A stretch of 64,000 bases of DNA, taken from contig PLJD01000026.1 of NCBI GenBank assembly GCA_003140175.1, positions 1-64,000 on the forward strand, read 5' to 3'. Of the stretch, positions 40,933 to 47,201 are shown in pieces (within the stretch, counting starts at the first letter, position 1; the number at the start of each line of letters is the position of its first letter). This DNA is from Actinomycetota bacterium (GTDB lineage: Bacteria > Actinomycetota > Acidimicrobiia > IMCC26256 > PALSA-555). The translations under genes were made by a program, and so were the position numbers. The notes below the pieces were generated by a model, which was not told the DNA's origin, searched no databases, and worked only from the letters and a program-made list of their open reading frames with translations.

Positions 40933-40988
40933 CGGTTCGGTTGGTTGGGGTCGATGGTGAAGAATGAGTGGCGGCGAGAGGAGCACTG

Positions 40989-42374
40989 GTGCCGGAGCAA
41001 TTCGATGTGGTCGTCCTCGGTGGCGGTCCAGGCGGGTATGCCGCAGCGCTCTACGGCGCCGCCGCCGGTCTTCGGATCGGGCTGATCGAGGAGGAACGAG
41101 TCGGCGGGACGTGTCTCCATCGGGGCTGCATACCGGCCAAGGAGCTACTGCAAACTGCCGAGGTGCTCCGAACGGTCGCGGGCGCCAAGGAGTTTGGCGT
41201 GGATGCCGGGCAACCGTCGCTGGACCTGGCGACCAGTCAGGCCCGCAAGCACCAGGTCATCGACCGGCTCACCCGAGGGCTGGAGACGCTCCTCACGGGC
41301 CGGAAGGTCACGGTGGTCAACGGAACGGGATCCTTGATTGACGGTGCCGCCCGCCACGTGCGGGTCTCCGATGGGACCGAGCTCACCGGCGACGCGCTCA
41401 TCATCGCCACCGGCTCAACGCCACGGTCCCTACCCGGCCTGGACTTCGATGGCCGGCGGATCCTGTCGTCCGATCACGTGCTCGAGCTCGACGAGGTCCC
41501 CAAGCGGGTCGCCATCATCGGCTCGGGCGCCGTCGGCTGCGAGTTCGCTTCGTTGCTTGGCGATCTCGGCTCTGAGGTCACGATGCTCGAAGCCCTGCCT
41601 CGGATCCTGCCCGGCGCCGACGAGCAAGTGTCGGACGCGCTGGCGCGATCGCTCACGAAGCGAGGGATCGCCGCGCACGGCGGCGTACGTGTGACGAGCA
41701 TCGAGGGGACGCGAGAACTGAGCGTCGGATTCGATTCCAACGATGGTGCGAAGACGGTGGTGGTCGACCGGGTCATCGTCAGTATCGGGCGAGCGGCTCG
41801 AACCGAGGGTCTCGGGCTCGAAGGGTCGGGTATCGAGCTTGACGCTCACGGCTGCATCGCGGTCGATGACCACCTGCGGACTGCGGTTGCCGACGTGTAC
41901 GCGGTTGGCGACGTGGTCGCCACGCCTCAGCTCGCCCACGTCGCATTCTCAGAAGCCATCGTGGCGATCAAGAGCATCCTGGGAGAGGATGCGACACCGA
42001 TCGACTACGACAAGGTCCCCTGGGGTATCTACTCGCATCCCGAAGTCGCCTTCGCTGGCTTGACGGAGGATCAGGCTCGTCGCCGAGGACACAACGTGGT
42101 CACCTCGGTACACCGGTTCGCTGGCAACAGCCGCGCGGCGATCATCGGTGAAACCGACGGCCTCGTGAAAATCGTCGCGGACGACACGGGGGTCATGCTC
42201 GGCGTCCACATCGTGGGTCCCTGGGCAACGGAGCTGATCGCCGAGGGCTACCTCGCCGTCAACTGGGAAGCGACAGTGAACGAGGTGGGCGCCTACATTC
42301 ACGCCCATCCGACGCTGAGCGAACTCTTCGGCGAATCCGCGCTTGCACTGACCGGGCGCTCGCTGCACGGCTGA
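40989..42374 (+). CDS. lpdA: Dihydrolipoyl dehydrogenase (E3)
   Basis: 461 residues. GTG 40989 is chosen because GAGAGGAG lies just upstream and the FAD-binding motif follows at once (V-V-L-G-G-G-P-G-G-Y). The redox disulfide G-G-T-C-L-H-R-G-C-I-P is at about residues 40-50, the NAD site G-S-G-A-V-G-C-E-F at about 180, and the active-site H-A-H-P-T-L-S-E near the C-terminus. It reoxidises the lipoyl arm of the adjacent E2 using NAD+. Confidence 0.97.
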   Translation: MPEQFDVVVLGGGPGGYAAALYGAAAGLRIGLIEEERVGGTCLHRGCIPAKELLQTAEVLRTVAGAKEFGVDAGQPSLDLATSQARKHQVIDRLTRGLETLLTGRKVTVVNGTGSLIDGAARHVRVSDGTELTGDALIIATGSTPRSLPGLDFDGRRILSSDHVLELDEVPKRVAIIGSGAVGCEFASLLGDLGSEVTMLEALPRILPGADEQVSDALARSLTKRGIAAHGGVRVTSIEGTRELSVGFDSNDGAKTVVVDRVIVSIGRAARTEGLGLEGSGIELDAHGCIAVDDHLRTAVADVYAVGDVVATPQLAHVAFSEAIVAIKSILGEDATPIDYDKVPWGIYSHPEVAFAGLTEDQARRRGHNVVTSVHRFAGNSRAAIIGETDGLVKIVADDTGVMLGVHIVGPWATELIAEGYLAVNWEATVNEVGAYIHAHPTLSELFGESALALTGRSLHG

Positions 42375-42395: not shown

Positions 42396-43934
42396 GTGGA
42401 CATCACGATGCCGCAGCTGGGCGAGACGGTCACCGAAGGAACGATCACGCGCTGGCTCAAGCAGGTCGGCGAACGCGTCAACCCCGACGAGCCGCTCTTT
42501 GAGGTTTCCACCGACAAGGTCGACTCGGAGGTGCCCGCGTCGGCCGGCGGATACCTGAACGAGATCCGCGTCACAGAGGGCGAGACCGCCGCGGTCGGGA
42601 CGGTCCTCGCCGTCATCGGCGAGGCGCCCGCCACCAGCGGCCCACCGGCCTCCGAGCCCACCCGGCCGGCCGAGGTCGACATCACGCAGCCGACCCCGGT
42701 CGTGGCCACTGCGCCTCCGCCACCGGTGATCAGCCCCCCGGTCCCTCCGAGCGAGCCGAGTGCACCGCCGCTCGCACCGCCGGTCCCGGCCGCATCACCG
42801 TCACCTGATCCGCGCCCGGTCGCGTCGGCGACGCCGACCGCACGAGGTGCTCCGCTCACCTCTCCGATCGTGCGGCGGCTCCTGACCGAATCCGGGCTCG
42901 ACCCGGCCGAGGTCCACGGCACGGGTGACGGTGGTCGCATCACCCGCAAGGACGTCCAGGACGCGGCCGTTGCCCGTTCGGCTCGCCCAGCGGTCGAGCC
43001 ACTGGCCCCTTCCCCGGCGGTCGCTTCGCCGCCGCCACCCGTGGCACCGGCGCCCTCCCCGGTCGTCGTCGCGCCCCCGTCGCCACCCGCGGCACCGGTT
43101 CCGGTGGCCGCGTCGCCGACGGTCATCACGCCACCGAGCAGCGCACCGTCGAGGCCCCCCGCGCCAACCGTGGCTGTTCCCCCCGGTGAGCCGGTGGTCG
43201 CGGAGCGGCAGGACCAAGCCGCCGACGAAGTCGAGCCGTTCTCGAATATTCGACGCCGTACTGCTGAGCACATGGTGCGCTCGAAAGCGACCAGCGCGCA
43301 CGTGTACACCTCGGTCGAAGTCGATTTCGAGCCCATCGCTCGTCTCCGAGCCCGCCACCAAGACGCTTGGAAGCAGCGCGAAGGTTTCTCGCTGACGTAC
43401 CTGCCGTTCGTCGCCCGGGCGTTCGGGGCCGCCGTCGAGCAGTTTCCGAACGTCAACGCGAGCGTCGGCGACCAAGCCTTGGTCGTGCACCGGCGGGTGA
43501 ACCTCGGTATCGCCGTCGACTTGGACTTCCAGGGGCTGGTCGCGCCCGTCATCCGCGACGCCGACGGGAAGCGTCTCCGTCTCCTCGCCCGCGAGATCCG
43601 CGACCTCGCAACCCGAGCGCGAAGCAAGCAGCTGACGCCCGACGAAGTCATCGGAGCGACCTTCACGATCACAAACCCCGGCCCCTACGGGACCTTCATG
43701 ACCTTGCCCATCATCAGCCAGCCTCAGGTCGCGATTCTGTCGACCGACGGTGTCCGCAAGCAGCCGATGGTGATCACCGGAGTGGACGGCGCCGATGTCA
43801 TCGCAGTCCGACACACCGGAATCCTGGCGCTGACGTGGGACCACCGCGCCTTCGACGGAGCGTACGCAGCGGCATTCCTCCGCGCACTGAAGCACGACCT
43901 CGAGACTCGTGACTGGGAAGTCGAACTCGCTTGA
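42396..43934 (+). CDS. 2-Oxoacid dehydrogenase E2, dihydrolipoyl acyltransferase
   Basis: 512 residues from GTG 42396 with GGGAGAG upstream. One lipoyl domain (1-75) carries the lipoyl-lysine motif T-D-K-V-D-S-E. A Pro/Ala/Val-rich linker follows, then the peripheral subunit-binding domain (about 148-183), a second Pro-rich linker, and the catalytic acyltransferase domain (about 270-512) with H-R-A-F-D-G-A near the end. Whether it belongs to the pyruvate, 2-oxoglutarate or branched-chain complex is open; no E1 gene is in the window. Overlaps the LipB-LipA fusion gene downstream. Confidence 0.95.
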   Translation: MDITMPQLGETVTEGTITRWLKQVGERVNPDEPLFEVSTDKVDSEVPASAGGYLNEIRVTEGETAAVGTVLAVIGEAPATSGPPASEPTRPAEVDITQPTPVVATAPPPPVISPPVPPSEPSAPPLAPPVPAASPSPDPRPVASATPTARGAPLTSPIVRRLLTESGLDPAEVHGTGDGGRITRKDVQDAAVARSARPAVEPLAPSPAVASPPPPVAPAPSPVVVAPPSPPAAPVPVAASPTVITPPSSAPSRPPAPTVAVPPGEPVVAERQDQAADEVEPFSNIRRRTAEHMVRSKATSAHVYTSVEVDFEPIARLRARHQDAWKQREGFSLTYLPFVARAFGAAVEQFPNVNASVGDQALVVHRRVNLGIAVDLDFQGLVAPVIRDADGKRLRLLAREIRDLATRARSKQLTPDEVIGATFTITNPGPYGTFMTLPIISQPQVAILSTDGVRKQPMVITGVDGADVIAVRHTGILALTWDHRAFDGAYAAAFLRALKHDLETRDWEVELA

Positions 43935-45571
43935 GCCAAGACCTGTTGCGAGTCCGATGGCTGGGGCACGTCGGCTATCGAGAAGCAGACATCATCCAGC
44001 GAGCCCTCCACGCTCGCAGTCCCGTCGATCGGTTGCTGCTGCTCGAGCACGACCACGTGTTCACCCTGGGAAGCCGCGCCGACCCCTCGCACGTATTGGT
44101 ACCGCCCGCGTCGGTTGGCGCCCAGCTGGTGCAGACCGACCGGGGCGGTGACGTCACCTATCACGGGCCGGGCCAGCTGGTCGGCTATCCCATCCTCACC
44201 ATCCCCGGATCCGGCACGGGAATCCGCGACGTCGTAGCGTACGTGCGCCACCTCGAGACGGTGATCATCACGGCGCTCGCCGACTGTGGTGTGCGTGCTC
44301 GCCGCATCGACCGCCTGACCGGCGTGTGGGTCGGCGACGAGAAGATCGCCGCGATCGGGGTTCGGGTGGCGCGGAACCGAACCCGCCACGGGTTCGCCCT
44401 CAACGTCGACCCCGATCTGTCGATGTTCAACAACATCGTTCCGTGCGGGATCCGGGACAAAGGCGTCACCTCCATCGCCCGGGTGCTCGGAGAGGGACCC
44501 CGGATGCTCGACGTCGTCGATCGCGTCGTCGCCCAGTTCTCCGCGGAGTTCGGGTACCAGCGGGTGGAACGCCAGGACGTGGCCCCGACGCTGACGGTCC
44601 GATCGCCCGCAGCCGTGGCCGCGACGTCGGCGGGCGTCGATGGGCGGCGACTCATCGCCCGGCTCGAGGCCGCTGGCGTCCAGGTTCCCGAGGGCCCGGC
44701 GGATTTTCGGCGTCCGGAATGGCTCCGGGTGCGCGCCAACCTGGGTCCGACGTATCGAGAGGTCCAACGGCTCATGCGCCTCGAAGGCCTCCACACGGTG
44801 TGTGAGGAGGCTGGGTGCCCGAACATCTACGAATGCTGGGCCGATCGCACGGCGACCTTCATGATTCTCGGAGATCGGTGCACCCGATCGTGCGGCTTCT
44901 GTCTGGTCACCACGGCAAAGCCGGGACCGCCCGACACCGACGAGCCGGACCACGTCGCCGACGCCGTCGCCAGGCTCGGACTTGCGCACGTCGTGATCAC
45001 GAGCGTCGCGCGAGACGATCTGCCAGACGGCGGTGCCGCCGCGTTCGCCGCGACGGTGCGCGCGATCCGTTCCAGAACTCCCACCGCCCGGGTCGAGCTG
45101 TTGATCCCCGACTGCAAAGGTGATCCGGAGGCGCTCGCGGTGATCTTCGCCGCCGCGCCCGACGTCCTGAACCACAACTTGGAAACGGTCGCCCGACTCC
45201 AACGCGCACTCCGGCCGAACGCCAACTATGCGCGATCGCTCGGGGTGCTGGCTCGCGCCAAGGACCGCGGGCTCGTCGCGAAGTCGGGCCTGATCCTCGG
45301 GATGGGCGAGACCGAGGCCGAAACCAGGGGAGCGATCGCCGATCTCCGCGACGTTGGGGTCGACATCCTGACCCTCGGTCAGTACCTGCGCCCCTCGGCA
45401 CGCCACGCGCCGGTTGCTCGTTGGTGGCGCTCCGACGAGTTCGACGACCTTCGCGTCCACGCGGAGCAGCTCGGCTTTGCGCACGTCGAGGCTGGTCCGC
45501 TGGTCCGTTCCAGCTACCACGCCCGCCGAGCGGTCGAGGCGACGGTCGAGCTGGTGGACGCGGCGGTCTGA
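43931..45571 (+). CDS. LipB-LipA fusion: octanoyltransferase and lipoyl synthase in one protein
   Basis: 546 residues in one uninterrupted frame from TTG 43931, overlapping the E2 stop (TTGA). Residues 1-215 are LipB: R-G-G-D-V-T-Y-H-G-P-G-Q, Lys138 in D-E-K-I-A-A-I-G, and the acyl-enzyme Cys172 in V-P-C-G-I. Residues ~235-546 are LipA: auxiliary cluster Cys291, Cys296 and Cys302 (C-x4-C-x5-C), radical-SAM Cys317, Cys321 and Cys324 (C-x3-C-x2-C), and the R-S-S-Y-H-A end that ligates the auxiliary cluster. All catalytic residues of both enzymes are kept, so the protein could transfer octanoate to E2 and insert sulfur at once. Separate genes are the rule elsewhere. Confidence 0.96.
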   Translation: MSQDLLRVRWLGHVGYREADIIQRALHARSPVDRLLLLEHDHVFTLGSRADPSHVLVPPASVGAQLVQTDRGGDVTYHGPGQLVGYPILTIPGSGTGIRDVVAYVRHLETVIITALADCGVRARRIDRLTGVWVGDEKIAAIGVRVARNRTRHGFALNVDPDLSMFNNIVPCGIRDKGVTSIARVLGEGPRMLDVVDRVVAQFSAEFGYQRVERQDVAPTLTVRSPAAVAATSAGVDGRRLIARLEAAGVQVPEGPADFRRPEWLRVRANLGPTYREVQRLMRLEGLHTVCEEAGCPNIYECWADRTATFMILGDRCTRSCGFCLVTTAKPGPPDTDEPDHVADAVARLGLAHVVITSVARDDLPDGGAAAFAATVRAIRSRTPTARVELLIPDCKGDPEALAVIFAAAPDVLNHNLETVARLQRALRPNANYARSLGVLARAKDRGLVAKSGLILGMGETEAETRGAIADLRDVGVDILTLGQYLRPSARHAPVARWWRSDEFDDLRVHAEQLGFAHVEAGPLVRSSYHARRAVEATVELVDAAV

Positions 45572-46119
45572 TGGGCCGCACCTTTGAGGAGATCTCGCCC
45601 GAGGTCGCACAGTTCATCGCCGAGCAGCCGATGTTCTTCGTTGCGACCGCCCCGAGCGACGGCGGACACGTCAACGTGTCCCCGAAGGGGCTCGGGGCCG
45701 TGAAGGTGCTTGCCCCCCGCGAGGTTGCGTACCTCGATCTCACGGGCAGCGGTGTGGAGACGGTTGCGCACCTCCGCCAGAACGCCCGGATCACGCTGAT
45801 GTTCTGCGCGTTTACCGACAAGCCAAACATCGTTCGTGTCTACGGTCACGGTGAGGCGATCCCGGTGGACGACGACCGCGCCGCACCGCTGCTCGGCCAT
45901 TTCCCCTCGATCTCGGGCGCCCGGACAGTTATTCGGGTCGACGTCGACCGGGTGTCGACATCCTGCGGCTACGGCGTGCCGATCCTGCGCTACGAACGCG
46001 ATCGCGACCAGTTGATCACCTGGGCCGAGCGCAAAGGGCCCGACGGGCTGGCCGAATACCGGTCGGTCACCAACGCCGCCAGCATCGACGACCTGCCGGG
46101 GCTCGACGCCAGTTCATGA
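45571..46119 (+). CDS. Pyridoxamine 5'-phosphate oxidase-like flavin/heme-type protein
   Basis: 182 residues; ATG overlaps the preceding stop (TGATG). Split-barrel PNPOx fold: F-F-V-A-T-A, G-H-V-N-V-S-P-K-G-L, V-A-Y-L-D-L-T-G-S-G and V-Y-G-H-G segments are typical of the general-stress or COG3871-like branch. It may bind FMN or F420; substrate unknown. Part of an overlapping plus-strand run that continues into an M24 peptidase. Confidence 0.85.
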   Translation: MGRTFEEISPEVAQFIAEQPMFFVATAPSDGGHVNVSPKGLGAVKVLAPREVAYLDLTGSGVETVAHLRQNARITLMFCAFTDKPNIVRVYGHGEAIPVDDDRAAPLLGHFPSISGARTVIRVDVDRVSTSCGYGVPILRYERDRDQLITWAERKGPDGLAEYRSVTNAASIDDLPGLDASS

Positions 46120-47201
46120 ACTACCGCGAGCGACTCGATCGAACCCGCCAACGCATGGACACGCTGGGCGTCGACGTGCTCCTCGCGTCCTGCGGACCGG
46201 ACCTCACCTATCTCACCGGTTACGAGGCCGTCCCGCTCGAACGGCTGACCGCGCTGATCCTCGCCCGGGGAGACGAATCGACCCTCCTCGTTCCCCGGCT
46301 GGAAGCGGCCCGCGTCGAGGAGCGCCCGGATGTGTTCAACCTGGAGACGTGGGACGAGGACGAGGATCCGGTCGAACGCGTCGCCGCCCACGTACGATCC
46401 GCGCAGATCGTGGCGGTTGCCGACCACGCGTCGGCCCGGCTCCTGCTGGCGCTCCAGGACGCGCTCCCTCGGGCCCGCTTCATCCGCGCCAGCTTGGTCA
46501 CGAGCCCGCTGCGGGCGAGAAAAGACGAGGCCGAGATCAGCCGGTTACAAGCCGCGGCTGATGCGGTTGATGCGATCGCGCATGGCTTGCGGGTTCGTCC
46601 GCTGGGCGGTCGGACGGAGCGAGACATCCAACGGATGCTGATCGAGCTGATGCTGGATGCGGGCCACGACCGTGCGAACTTCGCGATTGTCGGGACGGGA
46701 CCCAACAGCGCGAGTCCGCACCACGAGCCGAGCGACCGTCGAGTGGAGGCCGGCGATGTCGTCCTGTGCGACTTCGGCGGCACCATGCGCGGCTACTGCT
46801 CCGATATCACCCGGATGTTTGTCGTCGGTGAGATCCGGCCCGAAGTCCAGGATGCCTACGACGCACTGTCGGTGGCTCAAGAGACCGCGGTGAGCGCCGC
46901 GACGGTCGGGACGCCCTGCGAGGATGTCGACGCGGTCGCCCGCGGCGTCCTCGCACAGTCGGCGTTCGCCGAGCAGTTCATCCACCGCACGGGTCATGGC
47001 ATCGGGCTGGAAGCCCACGAGGATCCGTATCTCGTGGTGGGCAATGACACCCGGCTGGCTCCCGGTCACTCGTTCAGCATTGAGCCTGGGATCTACTTTC
47101 CGGGACAGTTCGGGCTTCGAATCGAAGACATCGTCGTTGCTGACGCCGCGGGTCCTCGACGCTTGAACTCTGCTGCTCGGGATCTCGCCGTCGTCGAGTG
47201 A
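46116..47201 (+). CDS. M24 family Xaa-Pro aminopeptidase
   Basis: 361 residues; start overlaps the upstream stop (ATGA). Creatinase-like N-terminal domain (1-125), then the pita-bread catalytic domain with all five metal ligands visible: Asp in C-D-F-G-G and in S-D-I-T-R, His in G-H-G-I-G-L-E-A-H, Glu in I-E-P-G-I-Y and Glu in R-I-E-D-I. Expected to remove N-terminal residues next to proline from peptides in the cytoplasm. Confidence 0.94.
   Translation: MNYRERLDRTRQRMDTLGVDVLLASCGPDLTYLTGYEAVPLERLTALILARGDESTLLVPRLEAARVEERPDVFNLETWDEDEDPVERVAAHVRSAQIVAVADHASARLLLALQDALPRARFIRASLVTSPLRARKDEAEISRLQAAADAVDAIAHGLRVRPLGGRTERDIQRMLIELMLDAGHDRANFAIVGTGPNSASPHHEPSDRRVEAGDVVLCDFGGTMRGYCSDITRMFVVGEIRPEVQDAYDALSVAQETAVSAATVGTPCEDVDAVARGVLAQSAFAEQFIHRTGHGIGLEAHEDPYLVVGNDTRLAPGHSFSIEPGIYFPGQFGLRIEDIVVADAAGPRRLNSAARDLAVVE

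Follow-up and report, generated by a model that had tools for sequence, protein, structure and literature searches.

The window, a stretch of 64,000 nucleotides from an actinobacterial genome of the class Acidimicrobiia, carries five successive forward-strand genes in the order lpd, E2, lipB-lipA fusion, PNPOx-like and M24 peptidase (Table 1). The third is a single open frame that encodes both an octanoyltransferase (LipB) and a lipoyl synthase (LipA) domain. Its TTG start lies in a four-base overlap (TTGA) with the end of the E2 gene, stop codon included, and GGGAAG is found about 10 bases 5' of this TTG. The first-pass annotation had described the gene as overlapping that of E2, with E3 just upstream, and this arrangement is borne out.

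Table 1. Features of the lipB-lipA fusion locus (window positions)
Feature	Position	Strand	Evidence or remark
lpd, dihydrolipoyl dehydrogenase (E3)	40968..42374	+	TIGR01350, 490 bits (cut-off 408.8)
E2 of a 2-oxoacid dehydrogenase complex; one lipoyl domain, E3-binding domain, catalytic domain	42396..43934	+	PF00364, PF02817, PF00198
lipB-lipA fusion gene, 546 aa	43931..45571	+	Single open frame; TTG start at 43931, TGA at 45569-45571
LipB octanoyltransferase domain, residues about 1-215	43931..44575	+	TIGR00214, PRK14345, PF21948, fold match 2qhs
Catalytic Lys138 codon	44342..44344	+	Counterpart of E. coli LipB K135; no variation among 43 fused homologues
Catalytic Cys172 codon	44444..44446	+	Counterpart of E. 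coli LipB C169; no variation among 43 fused homologues
Linker, residues 216-256 (41 residues)	44576..44698	+	Alignment, model, base composition
LipA lipoyl synthase domain (radical SAM), residues 257-540	44699..45550	+	TIGR00510, fold match 5exk
Auxiliary [4Fe-4S] cysteines C291, C296, C302 (CX4CX5C)	44801..44836	+	Sequence, alignments
Radical-SAM CX3CX2C cysteines C317, C321, C324	44879..44902	+	Sequence, alignments
C-terminal RSSY motif, residues 526-529	45506..45517	+	Sequence, alignments
PNPOx-like FMN protein	45571..46119	+	PF01243; ATG overlaps fusion-gene stop by one base
M24 family Xaa-Pro peptidase, next gene downstream of PNPOx-like	46116..47201	+	PF00557

The two halves and their junction

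The first reading of the sequence, that LipB and LipA are fused in one 546-residue protein, holds, as the frame is single and both families score above their curated cut-offs. The N-terminal half matches the NCBIfam LipB equivalogs PRK14345 at 194.8 bits (cut-off 155) and TIGR00214 at 156.1 bits (cut-off 83.55), and the Pfam family PF21948 at 141.6 bits. Its best sequence matches among solved chains are LipB structures, over residues 6-213, and its fold matches that of LipB 2qhs with a TM score of 0.90 by target length. The Lys/Cys dyad of E. coli and M. tuberculosis LipB (K135 and C169 in E. coli; PMC9307952) has its counterparts in Lys138 and Cys172, the two residues that had been picked out from the sequence. 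This half therefore shares fold, dyad and an above-cut-off family score with the LipB of those two species, in which it is a separate protein, whereas here it is joined to LipA.

The C-terminal half matches the NCBIfam LipA equivalog TIGR00510 at 350.5 bits (cut-off 310.25), LipA structures are the best sequence matches among solved chains over residues 233-536, and the fold match to M. tuberculosis LipA (5exk) has a TM score of 0.96 by target length. Both cysteine triads and the R-S-S-Y end that the first-pass annotation had named are present and line up with E. coli LipA; the triads and R526-S527-S528 are invariant in the 43 fused homologues, and only the last residue, Y529, varies. The triads, the RSSY end and the fold are thus common to this half and the LipA of 5exk, 4u0o and 8ugo, but those proteins have no LipB, which the LipA described here carries N-terminally. 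No solved chain that spans both halves was found by sequence or fold searches of structures.

At the junction the frame is open and the base composition is coding-like, with a GC3 of 0.84 in the LipB part, 0.85 in the linker and 0.81 in the LipA part. The linker is the least conserved portion of the protein, the mean share of the commonest residue being 0.35 there versus 0.60 in LipB and 0.69 in LipA, and its length varies from 36 to 82 residues over the counted span (reference residues 200-261). In the alignment, the N-terminal extension of M. tuberculosis LipA is matched by residues 233-258, so little new linker sequence would have been required to join the two enzymes. The stretch RLLGRLAEAGV recurs in the linkers of near relatives and forms a helix (238-247) in the AlphaFold model, and residues 222-234 are predicted to be disordered (pLDDT < 50).

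Distribution and origin of the fusion

We surveyed 150 genomes of the class with a completeness of at least 95%, and the gene was matched in 146. In 136 of these both domains lie in one frame (122 by a single alignment across both, 14 as separate pieces), in nine LipA lies in a frame of 585-815 amino acids (one of 585, the others 599-815) whose length suggests the fusion, and in one, G529, the gene is broken over contigs and has in addition a frame change. Judged from these frames, the fusion is the rule in the class, with 145 of 146 gene-bearing genomes fused, nine of them by frame length. Among the 60 nearest genomes, nearly all in which the gene does not run off a contig have it in the fused form. 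Where the names of fused loci are informative, they mostly point to Acidimicrobiia, Acidimicrobiales, Microthrix or Actinomarina, and on the tree these loci fall together with genomes from the window's class, which is most likely Acidimicrobiia on these grounds. All of the Actinomycetes loci examined are split, and in the other sampled Actinomycetota lipB and lipA are separate except in a single genome outside the class, G433 (L153/L187; another family), where they are fused while a relative of the same genus, G405, has them split. The search across Actinomycetota that the first-pass annotation proposed has thus turned up the fused architecture throughout one class and in G433, and its statement that separate genes are the rule stands for the phylum at large and fails for this class.

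An assembly or sequencing error that deleted a stop codon could in principle create such a frame, and one relative, G057 (L159, G057:C1:765000-773000), does have a frameshift inside the N-terminal region of its LipA part, which is either an error or a pseudogene. The same fusion is, however, present in well over 100 other assemblies, some of them single-contig genomes, and this excludes an artefact; we regard such an error as vanishingly improbable. Related genomes with two separate genes had been named as the finding that would expose an erroneous frame; the relatives within the class are fused almost without exception.

Several individual loci deserve mention. In-frame stops were indicated in four genomes of family f25, and the loci inspected have a single frame that spans both domains. 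G022 has, beside the fusion, a second and separate lipB-lipA pair on a 5-kb contig (L169, G022:C83) that is probably contamination or a transferred pair, and G002 has a LipB alone. The LipB part of G015 (L225; 769 aa frame) aligns in two pieces, which suggests an insertion within the domain. The fused gene is present on CAMBEL010000003.1 (L043), a contig deposited under the name Bifidobacterium breve; this organism label looks wrong. A plasmid search gave eight records with matches to both halves, a count of matches alone and not of reading frames.

In a tree built from 79 rows of LipB joined to LipA (quick search, SH-aLRT support only) the fused/split label requires two changes of state, the simplest reading being that the class and G433 each acquired the fusion once, with the ancestral state taken from the outgroups. 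The two fused sub-clades of the class lack a supported branch of their own joining them; a single origin within the class would be the most economical reading. Several Dietzia, Rhodococcus and Streptomyces loci have lipB and lipA in a common frame, interrupted by just one or two stop codons, cases that came from a search favouring them, so that their frequency carries no meaning. That so few stops separate the genes in several Actinomycetes suggests that fusion is an easy step. These pairs have the same gene order as the locus described here, some of them beside E2, but they make two proteins where the fusion makes one.

Lipoyl acceptors and the proposed function

The E2 encoded next to the fusion gene is likely its lipoylation substrate. 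It is the only recognised lipoyl-type acceptor in the assembly, which is 94.5% complete; two large biotin/lipoyl matches elsewhere in the genome resemble biotin-dependent carboxylases and have the AMKM biotin motif, and this same assembly gave no GcvH match. A relative of the same genus, G001, does have GcvH, and the lack of a match here is either a real loss or an assembly gap. With GcvH in that relative and found in 36 of 41 relatives searched, a tie between the fusion and GcvH loss is ruled out, and in most cases one or more acceptors other than E2 are available to the fused enzyme, which is thus not generally dedicated to E2 alone. The genome has a single LipB/LplA/LipM-type domain, that of the fusion, and a single match to the fusion protein, with no second LipA, so by sequence searches the fusion is the sole lipoate-assembly route found there. 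Among the 30 fused loci with room upstream, lpd is clustered with the fusion in all and E2 in 23, and E2 lies near 12 of 24 split lipB/lipA pairs. We note that in a Microthrix-like group (L056, L058, L061, L067, L073) lpd directly precedes lipB-lipA with no E2 between.

We consider it very probable (about 0.92) that the gene encodes a genuine bifunctional LipB-LipA enzyme, which would have originated a single time, when the class ancestor lost the stop codon of lipB, and been kept since. This reading is favoured because both halves score above curated cut-offs with their catalytic residues conserved, because the genome holds one LplA/B-type domain and one match to the fusion protein, and because class members are fused almost without exception, other Actinomycetota are split and the tree needs two changes. 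The LipB domain would take octanoyl from octanoyl-ACP onto Cys172 and then pass it to the lysine of the lipoyl domain, where the LipA domain would add one sulfur at C6 and one at C8 in a radical-SAM reaction. The stop codon would have been lost in an ancestral E2-lipB-lipA cluster, as is suggested by the E2 genes beside half of the split loci and by the LipA N-terminal extension included in the linker. What each domain catalyses, how the fusion arose and whether it brings a kinetic advantage are all inferred.

Domain packing and known relatives

AlphaFold, run on an alignment of 43 rows, gave a model with a mean pLDDT of 89.7 and a pTM of 0.92 over the 546 residues. By the pTM formula, such a value with domains of about 215 and 285 residues suggests that their relative placement is predicted with confidence. 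A control, read through the stop between the separate Dietzia lipB and lipA genes, folded with a pLDDT of 67.7 and a pTM of 0.45, because its shallower and narrower alignment yielded no model even of the LipA part; it speaks neither for nor against packing. On the model of the fusion, a direct transfer of octanoyl-E2 between the two domains, as the first-pass annotation proposed, is plausible. A stronger version, in which LipB and LipA are docked as a fixed two-site enzyme that hands over the octanoylated lipoyl domain without its leaving, and on which the class relies, would agree with a pTM that is high in spite of the disorder at 222-234, since the formula needs a low predicted error between the domains, and with retention of the fusion across a diverse class. 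We think it unlikely, given that the alignment holds 43 sequences, that packing is read from pTM and not from coordinates or an error matrix, that the linker is so variable in length, and that most relatives have, in GcvH, a second acceptor. Somewhat probable, in our estimate, is that the domains act independently, as if on a string, and that the fusion is neutral or merely secures equal amounts and co-translation: the linker is variable, separate enzymes suffice in relatives, some of which share the gene order, and the same-frame pairs of Actinomycetes and the independent case of G433 indicate that fusion comes easily. The pTM, which points to packing, and the lack of any clear reversal to separate genes among the 146 class genomes tell against independent domains.

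The nearest named architecture is NF053790, LplA_LipA_fuse (bifunctional lipoate--protein ligase/lipoyl synthase), in which a ligase/transferase-type domain is likewise followed by lipoyl synthase in one protein; its N-terminal half is, however, named as lipoate--protein ligase (LplA), where the fusion described here has LipB. Membership in that family is ruled out by a score of 358.1 bits against a cut-off of 800, reached over the LipA part only (residues 257-533). Both halves of the bifunctional protein are known enzymes with known chemistry, and their joining holds generally within one class. In protein databases such entries are named multifunctional fusion proteins. No account of a LipB-LipA fusion came up in text searches, which is weak evidence in view of this generic naming and of a scope with few subscription journals; in a recent paper on lipoate assembly, one that treats gene fusions, the passages matched by term contain no LipB-LipA fusion (PMC10332631).

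The movement of the octanoylated carrier from LipB to LipA is difficult to follow when the two are separate proteins in brief contact. With a natural fusion found throughout a class, the two reactions and a hand-off, if there is one, may be assayed and imaged in a single protein. The fusion also provides a simple gene-architecture marker for the class.
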